Shown in pieces: positions 2,645 to 35,226 of a DNA stretch of 64,000 bases (within the stretch, counting starts at the first letter, position 1; each line of letters opens with the position of its first letter). The DNA comes from Pseudomonadales bacterium (GTDB lineage: Bacteria; Pseudomonadota; Gammaproteobacteria; Pseudomonadales; Azotimanducaceae), in the NCBI GenBank assembly GCA_019634925.1, contig JAHCAL010000002.1, positions 558,001 to 622,000 on the forward strand. The letters run 5' to 3'. The translations under genes were made by a program, and so were the position numbers. The notes beneath the pieces were generated by a model. The model did not search any database. It was given only the letters and a program-made list of their open reading frames with translations, and was not told the origin of the DNA.

Positions 2645-5098
2645 TCAGGCCACCACCACGTTGACGAGCTTGCCCGGCACGAGGATCACCTTGCGCACCG
2701 ACTTGCCCTCCATGAACCGCTGTACGTTCTCGTTGGCGAGCGCCGCGGCGCGCGCGGCAGCCTCGTCGGCCTGCACCGGCAGTTCGACACGGCCGCGTAC
2801 CTTGCCGTTCACCTGCAGCACCCACTCGACCGCGTCCTGGACCAGGACCGTCGGGTCGACCTCGGGCCAGCGGGTCTCGACCAGCAAGCCGGCTTCGCCG
2901 AGCCGCGCCCACAGCGCCTGGCAGATGTGTGGCGCGATCGGCGACAGCACGACCAGCGCGACCCTGAGCGCCTCGTGGACGGCGGCCCGGTCCGCCGCGC
3001 CGGCCGGCTCCAGCCGGCTCACCGCGTTGACCAGTTCGTGCACGGCCGAGACCACGGTGTTGAACTGGATGCGCCGGCCGTAGTCGTCGTCGGCCCGTTG
3101 CAGGGTCTCGTGGGTCTTGCGGCGCAGCGCGCGTGCGCCCGGCGAAAGCGCCGCGTGGTCGAGCGGCGGCGGCGCGCCGGCCGCCATGTGTTCGTGCACC
3201 AGGTTCCACAGCCGCTTGCAGAAGCGTCCCTGCCCCTCGACCCCCGCCTCGCTCCATTCGAAGGACTGGTCGGGCGGTGCCGCGAACATCATGGCGGTAC
3301 GGACGGCGTCCGCGCCGTACTTGTCGAGCAGATGCTGCGGATCGCCCGCATCTCCGGACGACTTCGACATCTTGCGACCGTCCTTCAGCACCATGCCGAG
3401 CATCAACAGCCGGGTGAACGGCTCGTCGGACTGCACGAGCCCCGCGTCGCGCATGAGCTTGTGGAAGAACCGCGCGTACAGCAGGTGCAGGATCGCGTGC
3501 TCGATGCCGCCGACGTAGTGGTCGACCGGCGTCCAGTAGTTGGCGCGTTCGTCGAGCATGGGCGCGTTCGCGTCGGGGCAGGCGAAGCGCGCGTAGTACC
3601 AGGACGACTCCATGAACGTGTCGAACGTATCCGTTTCGCGCCGCGCTTCGCCGCCGCACTTCGGGCAACGCGTGCGGTGGAAGCTCTCCATGGTGGTGAG
3701 CGGCGAGCGCACGCCTTCGAAGGTCACGTCGGTCGGCAGCACGACGGGCAGGTCCCGTTCGGGTACCGGCACGACGCCGCATGCGGCGCAATGGATCATC
3801 GGAATCGGGCAGCCCCAGTAGCGCTGCCTGGACACGCCCCAGTCGCGCAGCCGGTAGTTGACCCGGCGCCGGCCGAGGCCCTTGGCGGCCAGCGCGTCGG
3901 CGATCGCCGTGAACGCCTCGGCCGAGCCGAGTCCGTCGAAGCCGGGCGAATTGACCAGCCGGCCGGGCGCGGTGAATGCCTGGCGCGCCAGGTCGCACGG
4001 TTCGTCACCGGCCGGCGCGATGACCTGACGCACGGGAATGCCGTATTTCATCGCGAATTCCCAGTCGCGCTGGTCGTGGCCGGGGACTGACATGACCGCG
4101 CCGGAGCCGTACTCCATGAGCACGAAGTTCGCGACCCAGACCGGCAGCCGTTCGCCGGTGAGCGGGTGATCGACAGTGAGTCCGGTCGCGATGCCCGCTT
4201 TCTCGAGCGTGGCGATCTCGGCCTCGGCGGTCTTGGTGTTGCGGCAACGTTCGACGAATGCCGCAACCGCGGCGTCCGCCAGCGCCGCCTCGCGTGCCAG
4301 CGGATGCTCGGCCGCCACCGCCACGTAGGTCGCGCCGAGCAGCGTGTCGGGACGGGTCGTGTAGACCGTCAGGCGATCGTCGCGTCCGGTGACCGGGAAA
4401 TCGATCTCGACGCCCTCGGACCGGCCGATCCAGTTGCGCTGCATGCTCTTGACCGATTCCGGCCAGCCGGGGAGGTTGTCGAGTTCGGCCAGCAGTTCTT
4501 CGGCGTAGTCGGTGATGCGCAGGAACCACTGCGGCATCTCGCGGCGTTCGACCGGCGCACCCGATCGCCAGCCGCGGCCGTCGACCACCTGCTCGTTGGC
4601 GAGCACGGTCTGGTCCACCGGATCCCAGTTCACCATCGAACTCTTGCGATAGACCATGCCTTTTTCGTAGAGCTTGAGGAAGAACCACTGTTCCCAGTGG
4701 TAGTACTCGGGATCGCAGGTCGCGAACTCGCGGCTCCAGTCGAAACCGAAACCGAGCCGCTGCATCTGCCCCTTCATGTACGCGATGTTGTCACGCGTCC
4801 ACTTCGCCGGCGGAATGCCGTGCTTGATCGCGGCGTTCTCGGCGGGAAGGCCGAAGGCGTCCCAGCCCATGGGCTGCATGACGTTGTACCCTTTCAGCCG
4901 GTGGTAGCGGTTGATGACGTCACCGAGCGTGTAGCAGCGGACGTGGCCCATGTGCAGGCGTCCGCTCGGGTACGGGAACATGGCGAGGCAGTAGTACTTC
5001 TCGCCCGCGCCCGCTTCGCGGGCTTCGAACGCGCGGGCGTCGCGCCAGGCTGCCTGGGCCGCACGCTCCACGCCGTGCGGGTCATAGGTCGCGGTCAT
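2645..5098 (-). CDS. leuS: Leucine--tRNA ligase
   Basis: This class I aminoacyl-tRNA synthetase charges tRNA-Leu in the cytoplasm. The proposed ATG at 5098 gives 817 residues and follows an AAGG Shine-Dalgarno. The frame stays open a further 45 codons upstream, but that stretch does not look like LeuS. The HIGH signature reads HMGH (residues 49-52) after PYPSGRL. The CP1 editing domain with its [12 protein letters not shown] motif follows, and the KMSKS loop ([10 protein letters not shown]) lies near residue 570. The length is somewhat below the roughly 860 residues of E. coli LeuS but within family range. It sits between lnt and lptE in the conserved block. Confidence 0.97.
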
Positions 5099-10705: not shown

Positions 10706-12079
10706 TCACTCCAGTCGTTGGCTCTGCTGCCGGGCATCGGACGCCGCCAGCAGCACGCCACGCAGGGAATTGCTGAACGCGGACTCGATCCGCACGTCGA
10801 CCATCCGGCCCACACAGTCGGGATCCCCGCGGAAATTGACCACGCGGTTGTTCTCCGTCCGTCCGGCGAGATCATCGCCGCCGCGCCGCGCAGCGCCCGT
10901 CACCAGGACGCGCTGGCGGGTACCGACCATCGCCGCCGCGATCGCATCGGCCTGTTCGCGCAGACGGGTCTGCAGGCGCGAGAGGCGCGCTTCCTTCACG
11001 GCGAGCGGCACGGGATCGGGCAGCGCCGCCGCCGGCGTGCCGGGCCGTGCGCTGTAGATGAAACTGAACGACACGTCGAAGCCGACGTCATCGATGAGCC
11101 GCATGGTGTCCTCGAAGTCCGCGTCGGTCTCCCCGGGGAACCCGACGATGAAGTCCGTCGAGAGGCTCAGGTGCGGGCGCACCGCGCGCAGCCGCGCGAT
11201 CTTCGCGCGATACTCGGCCGCCGTGTGGCCCCGCTTCATCAGCGCGAGGATCCGGTCCGAACCCGACTGCACCGGCAGGTGCAGGTGATCGACCAGCTGC
11301 GGCACCTCACGGTAGGCTTCGATCAGCGTGTCGGTGAACTCCACGGGATGCGAGGTGGTGAACCGGATCCGCTCGATGCCCTCGATCTCGGCGACGTAAT
11401 GGATGAGTTCGGCGAGGTCGGCATGATCGCCGTCGATCGCACCGCGGTAGGCGTTCACGTTCTGGCCGAGCAGGTTGACCTCGCGCACGCCCTGGCGCGC
11501 GAGCGCGACGATCTCGCGCATCACGTCGTCGACCGGACGGCTCACTTCGCGCCCGCGCGTGTAGGGTACGACACAGAACGTGCAGTACTTGCTGCAACCT
11601 TCCATGACCGACACGAACGCGCTGGCGCCCTCGGCACGCGGCTCGGGCAACCGGTCGAACTTCTCGATCTCGGGAAAGCTCACGTCCACGATGGGCACGC
11701 GCCGGGCCTCGCTCGCCGGCCGGCGCGCCGCATCGATCATCGCGGGCAGCCGGTGCAGCGTCTGCGGCCCGAACACCATGTCGACGAACGGCGCGCGGCG
11801 CTGAATGGCCGCACCTTCCTGGCTGGCCACGCAGCCGCCGACCCCGATCAACAGGTCCGGTTTATGCTCTTTCAGGCTCCGCCAGCGCCCGAGCTGGTGG
11901 AAGACCTTCTCCTGCGCCTTTTCCCGGATCGAACAGGTGTTGAGCAGGATCAGGTCCGCCTCCTCCGGCGCACCGACCAACTCGTAGTCGTGGCTGTCCC
12001 CGAGCAGCGCCGCCATCTTCGACGAGTCGTACTCGTTCATCTGGCAGCCGTGCGTCTTGATGAACAATTTCTTGCGCAA
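10706..12079 (-). CDS. miaB: tRNA-2-methylthio-N6-dimethylallyladenosine synthase
   Basis: MiaB is a radical-SAM enzyme that methylthiolates i6A37 in tRNAs. The N-terminal cluster cysteines lie in [19 protein letters not shown] and GGCVASQEG, the radical-SAM motif is CSKYCTFC, and a TRAM domain ends the protein. The TTG at 12079 is chosen because it gives [12 protein letters not shown], aligning with the E. coli start, for 457 residues. A frame open to an ATG at 12202 would begin inside the divergent DUF1820 gene and upstream of a perfect TATAAT at 12125-12130, so it is unlikely. This is the first gene of the minus-strand block. Confidence 0.95.
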
Positions 12080-12124
12080 GGGGGCGTTTCCCAAGATAGT
12101 GGCGGCGCGCGATTTCGCGCGCGG

Positions 12125-12130
12125 ATTATA
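12125..12130 (-). promoter_or_regulatory. -10 element of the miaB promoter
   Basis: A perfect TATAAT hexamer reads on the minus strand in a local AT-rich patch between two GC-rich genes. It would place transcription start near 12118, leaving about 40 bases of leader before the TTG start of miaB. No convincing -35 hexamer is seen at 17 bases. Confidence 0.55.
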
Positions 12131-12152
12131 GTGGGTTGAAATTTCCCCATAT

Positions 12153-12169
12153 ACCTCCACATCGGAGGT
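12153..12169. promoter_or_regulatory. Small palindrome in the miaB / DUF1820 divergent region
   Basis: Perfect 6-base arms ACCTCC and GGAGGT flank a 5-base spacer. It lies between the miaB -10 element and the DUF1820 start, so it could be an operator or a hairpin in the DUF1820 leader. There is no further support. Confidence 0.3.
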
Positions 12170-12191
12170 TCGCATCAGCAGGTGATCCACA

Positions 12192-12527
12192 ATGTCCGAC
12201 AATCCCAGACAGATGTTCCGGGTGCTGTTCCTGAACCAGGGGCAGGTCTACGAGGTGTACGCCCGGGCGATCTTCCAGAGCGACCTGTACGGATTCGTGG
12301 AGATCGAGGACTACGTATTCGGGAGCCGCAGCCAGCTGGTGGTGGACCCCACCGAAGACCGCCTGCGCAACGAGTTCGAAGGCGTCCAGCGCAGCTTCAT
12401 CCCCATGCACGCGATCATCCGCATCGATGAGGTGGAGAAAGAAGGCATCGCCAAGATCACCGACAGCAAGGGCGGCAACGTGACGCCGTTCCCGCTCCCC
12501 ATGCCGGGCGACCGGAGCCGCACCTGA
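12192..12527 (+). CDS. DUF1820 family protein
   Basis: This 111-residue cytoplasmic protein belongs to a small family of unknown function found mainly in Gammaproteobacteria, often beside miaB as here. The recognisable core runs from [18 protein letters not shown] through VEIEDYVFG to [16 protein letters not shown]. It has no signal peptide or membrane segment. The ATG follows AGGTG at a spacing of 8. Its stop overlaps the proposed CTG start of the downstream acyl-CoA synthetase. No biochemical role is known to me. Confidence 0.88.
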
Positions 12528-30971: not shown

Positions 30972-32222
30972 TCAGGACTCCCCGATCGATGACGGAACTT
31001 CGACTGCGGAACGCGACGTCGGTTCGCGCCGCAGCGGTACCGCGCCCGCCGCCGTCATGGCAATCAGCGCCAGCGCCGACGCCAGCACGCCCGTCAGGTA
31101 GGCGGCACGATAGCCGCTGAGGTCGAAGATGAGACCGAGCAATGCTGGACCACCCGCTACACCGGCCACGGTCAGCGCGTTCGACAGCGAGAAGATCCGC
31201 GGGTACGCCCGCACCCCGAACCCTTCCGCGATCCAGAGCGGCTGCAGCATCAGCAGGTTGCCGACGGTGGCGCCGAACAGCGCTGCGCCCGTCAGCACCG
31301 CGGCGGGTGTCTCGGCGAGCGCGATCACGGCGAGCCCGATGCCCTGGCCGACCAGATTGCCGAGCGTGAACCAGCGGATCGGCACCCGTGTCACCAGCCA
31401 GCCGCCGAGGAACCGCCCGCTGATGCTGAACAGCGTGAGCAGCTGGATCGCGGTCGCCGCGACACGAAAGTCCGCAATCAGCTCGGCCCGGTTGTAGAGA
31501 TGCGCGATGCCGCCCACCTGCGCGCCCATGCAGAGCAGGTAACCGAGCGTGAGCAGCACGAAGAACCGCGTGCGGATCGCTTGCGGATAGTCCCAGTCGG
31601 GCGCTTCGTCCGTACCCCCGCCCATGCCGCCCGCCGGCTCGCGCGGGCGGGCGCGCAGCACCAACAGCACGAGCGGGACGATGATCACGACGAACGCGAG
31701 GCCGAACCACGGCAAAGCGCCTTCGAGCCCGAATGCGTGGAGCGCGCGCGCCGAGAGCGGGGTCAGCACGATGCCACCGGCAGAAAGACCTGTGGACGCG
31801 ACCGACAGCGCCACCGAACGATTGCGCCCGGGGAACCAGCGCGTCACCAGCGTAGTAGCGGTGATGATCGAGACCGCGCTGTTGCCGATGCCGAATACCC
31901 CGAACAGCAGGTAGATCGCCCAGAGCGAGCGCACGTGGCCGGCCAACCCGAGCGCGAGCCCGCCGAGCAGCGCACCGCCGACCATGACCAGGCGGATGTC
32001 GTAACGCTCGATCAGGCGCGCGATCACCATGCCGGCGACGCCGCCGGTGACGAAGAACAGGCTGACCGCTACGGATACCTGGGCGATCGCGAAGCCGCGT
32101 TCGGCCGCCAGCACGCTCATGTAGACCGAGAGGTTGTAGAAACCGAAGCCTGACGACGCTGTCAGGACGACGAACAGGCCGGCGACCACCCACCAGCCGT
32201 AATAGATGCGCAATGCGGACAT
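30972..32222 (-). CDS. MFS transporter
   Basis: This major-facilitator protein of the inner membrane has 416 residues and about 12 hydrophobic helices. It begins MSALRIYYGWWVVAG, a start typical of the oxalate/formate and monocarboxylate-like MFS groups. The central loop is charged (RARPREPAGG onward). The ATG at 32222 follows GGGGA at spacing 6; a longer frame lacks homology. A small GC hairpin lies 32 bases upstream (32254-32270). It is coupled to degQ. The substrate is likely a carboxylate, but this is not shown. Confidence 0.88.
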   Translation of the reverse strand: MSALRIYYGWWVVAGLFVVLTASSGFGFYNLSVYMSVLAAERGFAIAQVSVAVSLFFVTGGVAGMVIARLIERYDIRLVMVGGALLGGLALGLAGHVRSLWAIYLLFGVFGIGNSAVSIITATTLVTRWFPGRNRSVALSVASTGLSAGGIVLTPLSARALHAFGLEGALPWFGLAFVVIIVPLVLLVLRARPREPAGGMGGGTDEAPDWDYPQAIRTRFFVLLTLGYLLCMGAQVGGIAHLYNRAELIADFRVAATAIQLLTLFSISGRFLGGWLVTRVPIRWFTLGNLVGQGIGLAVIALAETPAAVLTGAALFGATVGNLLMLQPLWIAEGFGVRAYPRIFSLSNALTVAGVAGGPALLGLIFDLSGYRAAYLTGVLASALALIAMTAAGAVPLRREPTSRSAVEVPSSIGES

Positions 32223-32321
32223 GCGGGTCCCCGGACCGTGAACACCAATCGTACCGCCCAACAGGGGCGGCGTGGCACTTCCGATCCAGTCGCCCTGGTG
32301 GCGCAGAACGAAACGTCGGCG

Positions 32322-32753
32322 TCAGGCCAGCCCGGCCAGCGTCTGGCGCAGTTCTTCCAGCACGGACTCACCGAACCGATGACGCACCGCGTCCTGGGGT
32401 TGCCCATGGCTGAAGTCGGTGACTCTGAACATTCGCTCGCCCCAGCCGGGCTCAAGCAGCCGCACGCCACCGTTGGAGAATGCTTCGAGTTCTGCCCCGC
32501 TGCAGCAGCAGCGCCACCGTCGAACCGATGGGATGAGCCGCGTGGTCGCCCTGTCACGCTCCACCAGGGGGCCGGGCGCCGTCACGGGAGCCGGCAGGTG
32601 ACGGTTCTCACGTCCTCGCGTGTGGCCGGCAGGCACCACTGCCGAGGCACCGGTCCCAGCCCCCATGGTGAGCCCGGCCAACCACACTGTCGCGCCGCCG
32701 ACGAACGTTCGACGCGAGCAGACGAACGCACCCGGGGATTGCGCGGCACGCAT
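32322..32753 (-). CDS. Putative Tat-exported protein coupled to Hcp-like gene
   Basis: The 143-residue product starts with a twin-arginine-type signal (CSRRTFVGG, Arg14-Arg15) and a hydrophobic core ending near ASA. The mature part has a triple cysteine (RWRCCCSGAE), then EAFSNGGVRLLEPGWGERMF and an alpha-helical end (VLEELRQTLAGLA). I recognise no family. Its ATG overlaps the Hcp-like stop by one base (TGATG), so both are translated from one message. The pairing of a T6SS-tube-like protein with a Tat substrate is not one I know. Confidence 0.6.
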   Translation of the reverse strand: MRAAQSPGAFVCSRRTFVGGATVWLAGLTMGAGTGASAVVPAGHTRGRENRHLPAPVTAPGPLVERDRATTRLIPSVRRWRCCCSGAELEAFSNGGVRLLEPGWGERMFRVTDFSHGQPQDAVRHRFGESVLEELRQTLAGLA

Positions 32754-33241
32754 CACGAAACTGCACTCAGGTTCGCGTTCCACGACTGCGACGACGGGAG
32801 GTTGTCTACCCGAAACGACTGGTAGGTCAGCGTGACCCGCTCCAGCACGGGCACATTGGCGCTATCCGCGTGGAGGTTGCTCATCATCTCGGTGCGTACC
32901 GCCGCAACCCGCCCGTTCTGAATGATGTACACCTGCAACAGTCGCAAGGAGCCGTCATCCGGGTGGGGGTCGAAGAACTTGAATGCGCCATCGATGCGCT
33001 GCCCCAGGGCCCACGCCTGCATCAGTTGCGGCGTCGACTGGTCGATGCGTTTGGTGAACGTGATCGGTCCGGGCACCAATCTGACGCCGCGGTCTCCCGT
33101 TTGGGTGACCAGTTCATGATAAAAGCCATGCGCCTCGATATGCTCGACGGATACGTCGACGCCACCAATGACGTTCACCGATACCGAGCCCGAAAGGGAC
33201 TGCCCCTGGATGCTGAGCGCCGCATACATGTTGACTGCCAC
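32753..33241 (-). CDS. Hcp-like protein (type VI secretion tube family)
   Basis: The 162-residue product resembles Hcp1-family proteins, which form the inner tube of type VI secretion systems. Matching parts are the start MAVNMYAALSIQGQS, ITFTKRIDQSTPQLMQAWA (the position of the Hcp xKxIDxxSPxLxxA motif), KFFDPHP and the end VLERVTLTYQSFRV. No other T6SS gene is in the window. The GTG start has a G-rich stretch about 9-14 bases ahead. It is coupled to the Tat-signal gene downstream and is divergent from pabBC across about 190 bases. It may be an orphan secreted Hcp or a repurposed one. Confidence 0.75.
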   Translation of the reverse strand: MAVNMYAALSIQGQSLSGSVSVNVIGGVDVSVEHIEAHGFYHELVTQTGDRGVRLVPGPITFTKRIDQSTPQLMQAWALGQRIDGAFKFFDPHPDDGSLRLLQVYIIQNGRVAAVRTEMMSNLHADSANVPVLERVTLTYQSFRVDNLPSSQSWNANLSAVS

Positions 33242-33429
33242 GATCCAATGCCCCCGAATTCGCCACTGTCGGCCAGCACGTTAGCCGAGCAAGGAACGAA
33301 CCCGCCATCCCGCGTTCACGGGATGCCTGTCTTCGTCGCACCGGTCGGGGTAAGGTTGCACGCCTCCAGCCACCCCGGGAAGTACGTGTACGGTTCGCAC
33401 GCCAGTTGCCCAGCACCGACGGTCCGGCC

Positions 33430-35226
33430 ATGACGCTTCGCATCGTCCTGCGCGACCAGCGTGAGGGTCTGTGGCTGGAACTGTCGGAGCCATGCGCGAC
33501 GTTCGTCGCGCGCGACGCATCCGCGGTCTTGCCCGTGGTAGAAGCCGCGGAGGATGCGGCGCGGAACGGCGCACGCCACGTGGCGGGCTTTCTCGCCTAC
33601 GAGGCGGCACCCGCGTTCGACCCCGTACTCACCGTGCACCCACCAGGCCAGCTGCCGGTCGCGTGGTTCACGGCCTTCGCCCATGCAACACCGGTCCCGG
33701 CACCGACTCCGTGCGGTCCGCCGCCGCAACTCAACTGGCGGCCGAGCCTCGACGAGCCGGCCTACCGGCGGGCCATCGCGACGATCCGCGAACTGATCCG
33801 GTCCGGCGACACCTACCAGGTGAACTTCAGCTACCGCCTGCGCGCCGAACTCGACGCAGCGACTCGCGCCGATCCCGCGAGAGTATTCGCGGCCATGGTC
33901 ACTCGTCAGCCGGACGGGCTCGGCGCCTACATCGAGACCGACGACTGGGCGATCGCGTGCGCGTCGCACGAACTGTTCTTCGCATGGCAGGACGGCCGCG
34001 TGGTCTCGCGCCCCATGAAGGGCACGGCGGAACGCGGCGCGGACCCGGCAGCGGACCATGGCCGGCGCGCGTGGCTCGCCGCGTCGGCGAAGAACCGCGC
34101 CGAGAACCTGATGATCACCGACATGGTGCGCAACGACCTCGGCCGCATCGCCCGGCCCGGCAGCGTGCAGACGACCGACCTGTTCGCGCTCGAGCAACAC
34201 CCGACGCTGTGGCAGATGACCAGCACGGTGTCGGCTGCGACCGACACGGACCTGGTCGGCATCCTGCGCGCACTGTTCCCCGCGGCCTCGATCACCGGCG
34301 CGCCGAAGCGCCGGACCATGGAGATCATCCGCACGCTCGAGTCCGATCCGCGCCAGATCTACACAGGTACGATCGGCTACCTGCGCCCGGACGGCAGCGC
34401 CCAGTTCAACGTGGCGATCCGTACCGCCGCGATCGACCGGCACACCGGGATCGCCGAGTACGGAGTCGGTGGCGGCATCGTCTGGGATTCGGACGCCGAC
34501 GAGGAGTACGCCGAGAGCCGCGCCAAGGCGCTGATCGTGGCGCCTGCCGCATTCGAGTTGCTGGAGACCCTGCGCTGGAGCCCCGACGCGGGTTATGCGT
34601 ACCTCGACCGACATCTGGCCAGGCTCGCCCGATCCGCGCGGTACTTTGCCTTCCCGTTCGACGAAACGCGCATACGCCGGGCGCTCGACGACGCCGCGGC
34701 CGGATTCCCGCCAGCCGCGCAGCGCGTGCGCCTGCTGCTCGATGCCCGCGGCGTACCGACCCTGCAGCACGCCGAACTGGCCCCGCTGCCGGCCGACTAC
34801 CGCGTCGCGCTGGCGCCGGAGCCCTGTGCCGTACTCGACAGTCCGTTCGTCTGCAACAAGACGACCAACCGCACGCTCTACGATCGGGCCCGTTCGAGCG
34901 TTGCCGATGTGGACGACGTATTGCTCTGGAATACACGCGGCGAACTGACCGAGTCATGCATCGCCAATCTGGTGGTCGAACTCGACGGCGTACGCGTGAC
35001 ACCGCCGGTATCGAGCGGTCTGCTGCCCGGTGTCTTGCGCGAGCACCTCCTCGAGAGCGGGCTGGTCCGCGAGCGGGTGGTGCGCCGCGACGATCTGGCC
35101 CGCTGCACGGGTATCTGGCTCGTCAACGCACTGCGCGGCATGTGGCCGGCCAGGCTCGTGGTGCCGGATGCCGGCGACGCCGCCTATACTGCCCGCTCAA
35201 CCGGACCAGGAGCAGCCGTTCGATGA
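33430..35226 (+). CDS. pabBC: Aminodeoxychorismate synthase / aminodeoxychorismate lyase fusion
   Basis: This fused enzyme of 598 residues makes p-aminobenzoate for folate. The N-terminal chorismate-binding PabB part (to about residue 375) shows SGDTYQVNFSYRL, RPMKGTAERG, NRAENLMITDMVRNDLGR and FPAASITGAPKRR. The C-terminal PabC part is a class IV PLP fold with CNKTTNRTLYD around the PLP lysine and NTRGELTESCIANLVV. Such fusions are known in several bacteria. The glutamine amidotransferase PabA is not nearby. The stop overlaps the ATG of a PhyH gene (ATGA). Confidence 0.94.
   Translation: MTLRIVLRDQREGLWLELSEPCATFVARDASAVLPVVEAAEDAARNGARHVAGFLAYEAAPAFDPVLTVHPPGQLPVAWFTAFAHATPVPAPTPCGPPPQLNWRPSLDEPAYRRAIATIRELIRSGDTYQVNFSYRLRAELDAATRADPARVFAAMVTRQPDGLGAYIETDDWAIACASHELFFAWQDGRVVSRPMKGTAERGADPAADHGRRAWLAASAKNRAENLMITDMVRNDLGRIARPGSVQTTDLFALEQHPTLWQMTSTVSAATDTDLVGILRALFPAASITGAPKRRTMEIIRTLESDPRQIYTGTIGYLRPDGSAQFNVAIRTAAIDRHTGIAEYGVGGGIVWDSDADEEYAESRAKALIVAPAAFELLETLRWSPDAGYAYLDRHLARLARSARYFAFPFDETRIRRALDDAAAGFPPAAQRVRLLLDARGVPTLQHAELAPLPADYRVALAPEPCAVLDSPFVCNKTTNRTLYDRARSSVADVDDVLLWNTRGELTESCIANLVVELDGVRVTPPVSSGLLPGVLREHLLESGLVRERVVRRDDLARCTGIWLVNALRGMWPARLVVPDAGDAAYTARSTGPGAAVR

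Follow-up and report, generated by a model that had tools for sequence, protein, structure and literature searches.

A divergent Hcp-like gene and the gene for a small protein with a twin-arginine (RR) signal form a conserved, overlapping pair in four genomes of one bacterial family. We tentatively read this pair as a module of the cell envelope that works independently of a type VI secretion system (T6SS), whose Hcp-fold protein would be carried through the Tat route by its RR partner.

Layout and products of the gene pair

The window analyzed here is a 64,000-nucleotide stretch of a Pseudomonadales bacterium genome (contig JAHCAL010000002.1, positions 558,001 to 622,000). On its minus strand, the Hcp-like gene overlaps the RR-protein gene, and both lie in a slot between two flanking genes (Table 1). 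The hcp stop codon TGA (32755-32753) shares one base with an ATG (32753-32751) in the form TGATG, and the same stop also overlaps an in-frame GTG (32756-32754) as GTGA, with the TGATG lying one codon further on. The original prediction had described an Hcp-like gene ending in TGATG with a gene for a Tat-signal-type protein, and both genes and this junction were confirmed at 32322-33241. The GTGA overlap is a predicted translational coupling of the two genes.

Table 1. Features of the gene pair and its flanks, in window coordinates
Feature	Position	Strand	Remarks
Hcp-like gene	32753..33241	-	162 aa, GTG start, no signal peptide; divergent T6SS_HCP-family protein
Small twin-arginine (RR) protein gene	32322..32756	-	144 aa from GTG, 143 from ATG
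GTGA overlap, hcp stop/RR start	32753..32756	-	same junction in 4/4 loci
Predicted Tat signal peptide	32640..32756	-	SRRTF, uncharged hydrophobic stretch, ASA
RR protein C-terminal domain, residues 74-144	32325..32537	-	strands then helices; conserved F...DF..G..Q
Cys-Cys-Cys, residues 83-85	32502..32510	-	not conserved in relatives (alignment)
Flanking MFS transporter	30972..32261	-	conserved neighbour, one edge of the variable slot
Flanking pabB/aminotransferase-IV gene	33406..35226	+	Pfam; divergent orientation, other edge of the slot

At 35.1 bits, the Hcp-like ORF scored above the cut-off of the Pfam T6SS_HCP model (PF05638; 23.5), and its 46.1 bits against TIGR03344 fell under the curated cut-off of 58.9. 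The codon (coding) signal of this gene is positive. A profile of the subfamily aligned with the solved Hcp 5urw at E=1.6e-24 over nearly its full length (profile positions 3-157), and the AlphaFold monomer model of the window protein had a pLDDT of 36. The N-terminus of the protein is directly the first Hcp strand, which leaves no space for a signal peptide.

The RR protein carries SRRTF, an S/T-R-R-x-F-like motif as expected of a Tat substrate, followed by an uncharged hydrophobic stretch. R15, R16, and F18 are invariant in all four RR proteins of the family, each of which has R-R-x-F near its start and then a hydrophobic stretch. The window protein matched neither TAT-signal model (PF10518/TIGR01409); its homologue in L086 scored 20.9 bits against TIGR01409 (cut-off 16.7) and 21.7 bits against PF10518 (cut-off 22.7). 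No family match was found for the RR protein in the Pfam/NCBIfam, PHROGs, or PADLOC libraries, and the Hcp-like protein was also without a match in PHROGs and PADLOC. In the AlphaFold2 model the first half of the RR protein is disordered and the C-terminal domain is compact, with strands preceding helices and a pLDDT of about 76-88 over residues 81-144. A fold search of the PDB returned nothing at E<=0.001; the best hit, a designed protein at Z 6.4, was read as no known match. The Cys-Cys-Cys motif that had been singled out from the sequence is present, but it is not a family trait: CCC occurs in the window protein, CC occurs twice in the G538 protein, and neither the G544 nor the G542 protein has such a motif. 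The alignment of the RR proteins contains no conserved cofactor-binding motif.

Conservation of the pair

An Hcp alignment, used to search 207 genomes of the family, detected related Hcp-like genes in three, all from one other genus (G538, G542, and G544). In each case the adjacent gene encodes an RR protein (L085 (G538) 2882-3304; L086 10146-10526; L087 (G542) 11927-12295), so that the pair sought in other genomes was recovered with its second frame. The known instances thus number four, all in one family. Identity to the window Hcp-like protein is 36% (G538), 27% (G544), and 23% (G542), and identity to the window RR protein is 28%, 27%, and 23%, respectively. Pairwise BLASTP between the window and G538 gave E=1.8e-34 for the Hcp-like proteins and 5e-11 for their RR partners.

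A profile built from the downstream genes of the three relatives found the window RR ORF at E=6e-11 among 939 window ORFs; with the signal peptides removed, this ORF was still found at 1e-9, the next-best window ORF having 0.44. Leave-one-out profiles recovered all four RR proteins (E 7e-9 to 3e-12), also without signal peptides, and the hcp/RR junction is an identical GTGA at every one of the four loci. On the strength of these profiles and this junction, the RR frame is a conserved gene.

Other searches were less productive. Queried singly against 58 relatives, the window proteins yielded no Hcp-like match beyond the window genome and no RR homologue that was credible; early RR-protein matches in relatives were compositional only, the true relatives having come through the Hcp alignment. 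A degenerate-pattern scan with the window Hcp over genome contigs and viral contigs gave no relatives, and a scan with a two-sequence alignment picked up the G538 contig (JAADHW01) and no other. Viral contigs and plasmids, when searched for the RR family, yielded no member. The Hcp matches on plasmids were annotated T6SS-type Hcps or unannotated, and one of them adjoins vgrG.

In G538, G542, and G544, hcp is preceded by a gene for a secreted, Cys-tailed protein. The three products have a C-C-CC-C-GC pattern in common over their final 70 residues, and those of G538 and G544 also contain FG-GAP repeats. Such a third gene is neither adjacent to the pair in the window nor present elsewhere within it.

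The slot that holds the pair differs between species. The gene order adh-degP-MFS is also present in relatives without the pair; phyH directly follows MFS in G001, and in the genus-mate G002 a rhodanese-like ORF (L053 3890-4500) occupies the slot between MFS and pabB, which indicates that the MFS/pabB site is variable. It could be argued that the pair is a decaying, horizontally acquired fragment that is functionless in this species. The pair was absent from the four genus-mates searched, the slot is otherwise empty or holds the rhodanese-like ORF, the G+C of hcp (0.609) was counted as lower, the codon signal of the RR ORF taken alone is weak, and the third gene is not adjacent. Yet neither frame is interrupted, and despite identities of only 28% (RR) and 36% (Hcp-like) to the closest relative, the pair has kept its conserved residues and the GTGA. 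We therefore regard decay as improbable.

T6SS status and position in the Hcp family

VipB/TssC was not found in any of the four pair-carrying genomes, of which the window genome is 87% complete and the others 90, 97, and 98%; the same search was positive in 9 of 58 relatives and in the E. coli control. For the window genome the T6SS search covered TssC, TssK, and the VgrG/GPD domain, and at its 87% completeness it yielded neither TssK nor the VgrG GPD domain, for both of which the E. coli controls were positive. The original statement that no other T6SS gene is present therefore holds as far as these three components go, and a complete T6SS elsewhere that might use this Hcp as its tube protein was not detected in the window genome.

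Two further Hcp-like proteins belong to the same group. The window genome encodes a second one of 327 aa with a Sec-type signal peptide (G000:C1:598570-599553; L060 8571-9554, minus strand), which lies outside any T6SS cluster and scores below the PF05638 cut-off. A lone 169-aa Hcp-like gene in G714 (L120 7542-8051, plus strand) has no RR neighbour, and TssC was likewise not found in that genome. When 40 sequences were placed in a quick maximum-likelihood tree, these two and the four Hcp-like proteins of the pairs grouped together (SH-aLRT 99), separately from 34 further Hcp-family proteins that were labelled as T6, most but not all of which had been checked to lie in T6SS clusters. The inner order of the tree is not firm, since some branches are long and the tree search was short. 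Among the order-wide Hcp matches listed, most of those examined lie beside TssC/TssE/TssF and not beside RR proteins.

An ordinary orphan island, with a spare Hcp and its cargo serving a resident T6SS, would be a familiar arrangement; orphan hcp islands are common (PMC13098142), and the window Hcp is above the Pfam cut-off. With no TssC found in the four genomes, neither TssK nor VgrG/GPD found in that of the window, and a subfamily that branches separately from the remaining sampled members of the Hcp family, we disfavour this explanation as very unlikely.

Proposed export of the Hcp-like protein

The pair has the makeup of a Tat hitchhiker, with a passenger that lacks a signal encoded together with a signal-bearing partner. 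The Tat system can move a signal-less protein in a folded complex with a Tat-signal partner, as in HybOC and PaoABC (PMC4273604). The related Hcp-like domain of the same genome that has its own Sec-type signal indicates that this fold is used outside the cytoplasm. Taken together, the signal-less Hcp-like protein, the Tat-type signal of its partner, the HybOC/PaoABC precedent, and the Sec-signal relative make co-export on the RR protein the best single reading. The RR protein and the Hcp-like protein would bind in the cytoplasm, and the Tat signal of the former would take the folded latter across the inner membrane by the hitchhiker route. Having crossed, the Hcp-like protein may act in the periplasm or at the surface, and in the relatives it may do so together with the secreted Cys-tailed protein.

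TorD/DmsD-type chaperones are dedicated proofreading partners of Tat enzymes. The Hcp-like protein might be a comparable cytoplasmic chaperone or proofreader, either for the RR protein or for the secreted Cys-tailed protein, with the RR protein alone being exported. Strict coupling and the lack of a signal peptide on the Hcp-like protein would suit such a role, and Hcp is described as a receptor and chaperone for T6SS effectors (PMC5874247). The Sec-type signal on a relative from the same Hcp group, which places the fold outside the cytoplasm, and the lack of a conserved cofactor-binding motif in the RR protein argue against it, leaving this the likeliest of the alternatives and still somewhat unlikely.

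It is also conceivable that the RR protein has a periplasmic task of its own that does not involve the Hcp-like protein, for example immunity or binding, and that the two genes share an operon because they serve one pathway and not because their products are exported together. A small periplasmic protein beside an effector-carrier-like protein resembles effector/immunity layouts, and the third gene does encode a secreted protein. We find this unlikely, given that four divergent loci have exactly the same GTGA coupling and that no toxin domain was recognized in the cassette, except for a TcdB_midN match that overlaps the FG-GAP repeats of the third gene.

Conservation of the pair in four genomes without detected TssC, together with the Sec-signal relative, supports the original prediction on the orphan status of the Hcp, its coupling to the RR gene, and a role in the envelope or in alternative export. 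The further suggestion of a two-part effector is not supported, as nothing points to a toxin or to an effector of this kind. A more far-reaching idea is that bacteria without a T6SS have reconstructed part of the puncturing device beyond the cytoplasm. Such a T6SS-free extracytoplasmic assembly would consist of a Tat-delivered Hcp ring or tube and surface proteins secreted through Sec, and in G542 one of these proteins would end in a VgrG/gp5-type needle. This we consider distinctly unlikely.

Relation to known systems

Finding an Hcp is usually taken as proof of a T6SS. The group described here is conserved in genomes without a detected T6SS, coupled to a Tat partner, and related to proteins with Sec signals, so that Hcp matches by themselves do not establish the presence of a T6SS, and it may be that the tube fold has found a second use in the cell envelope. 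Being so small, the two-gene unit would also allow a direct test of Tat hitchhiking by a non-redox protein.

With the T6SS tube protein Hcp/TssD (PF05638, TIGR03344), the window protein shares its domain family and, through the subfamily profile, the alignment with 5urw. It differs in falling below the TIGR03344 cut-off, in its coupling to an RR protein, in its separate branch of the tree, and in the lack of sheath, baseplate, or spike genes as covered by the TssC, TssK, and VgrG GPD searches of the 87%-complete genome. Orphan hcp islands of T6SS likewise have hcp away from the main cluster, but no resident T6SS was detected here, and an RR protein takes the place of VgrG, PAAR, or a recognized effector as partner.

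PF05638 genes with PEP-CTERM envelope sorting signals were left out of the Hcp tree in PMC8262886. In these proteins, too, the Hcp domain is apparently used outside T6SS, whereas in the present pair the signal is of the Tat type and sits on a separate, coupled partner. HybOC and PaoABC share with the pair a signal-less protein encoded together with a Tat-signal partner; unlike them, the pair includes no redox enzyme, its passenger would be an Hcp-fold protein, and its co-export is a proposal. Hcp-domain proteins with envelope signals and orphan hcp islands are thus already known, and searches of the open-access literature yielded no account of an Hcp-like gene with a coupled gene for a Tat-signal protein.

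Further genes beside the pair in relatives

In G542, further secreted proteins are encoded upstream of the cassette. One of these, a secreted protein of 326 aa (L087 7972-8952, plus strand), weakly resembles the VgrG/gp5 needle in its C-terminal stretch, with E=0.0023, 0.029, and 0.0026 in three libraries. Its gene lies three genes before the Cys-tail gene, and its 150-residue N-terminal domain is common to the product of the next gene at 42% identity. Beside the cassette region of the same genome (L087 2-7933), we observed genes for a caspase-domain protein with Sel1 repeats, a DUF4384 protein, an autotransporter beta-domain protein, and a LuxR-type two-component pair. Finally, an aminotransferase-IV-like C-terminal part, as in the pabB fusion of the window, is encoded about 1.5 kb from the G538 pair (L085 4831-5268, minus strand), which may reflect chance or a shared history.
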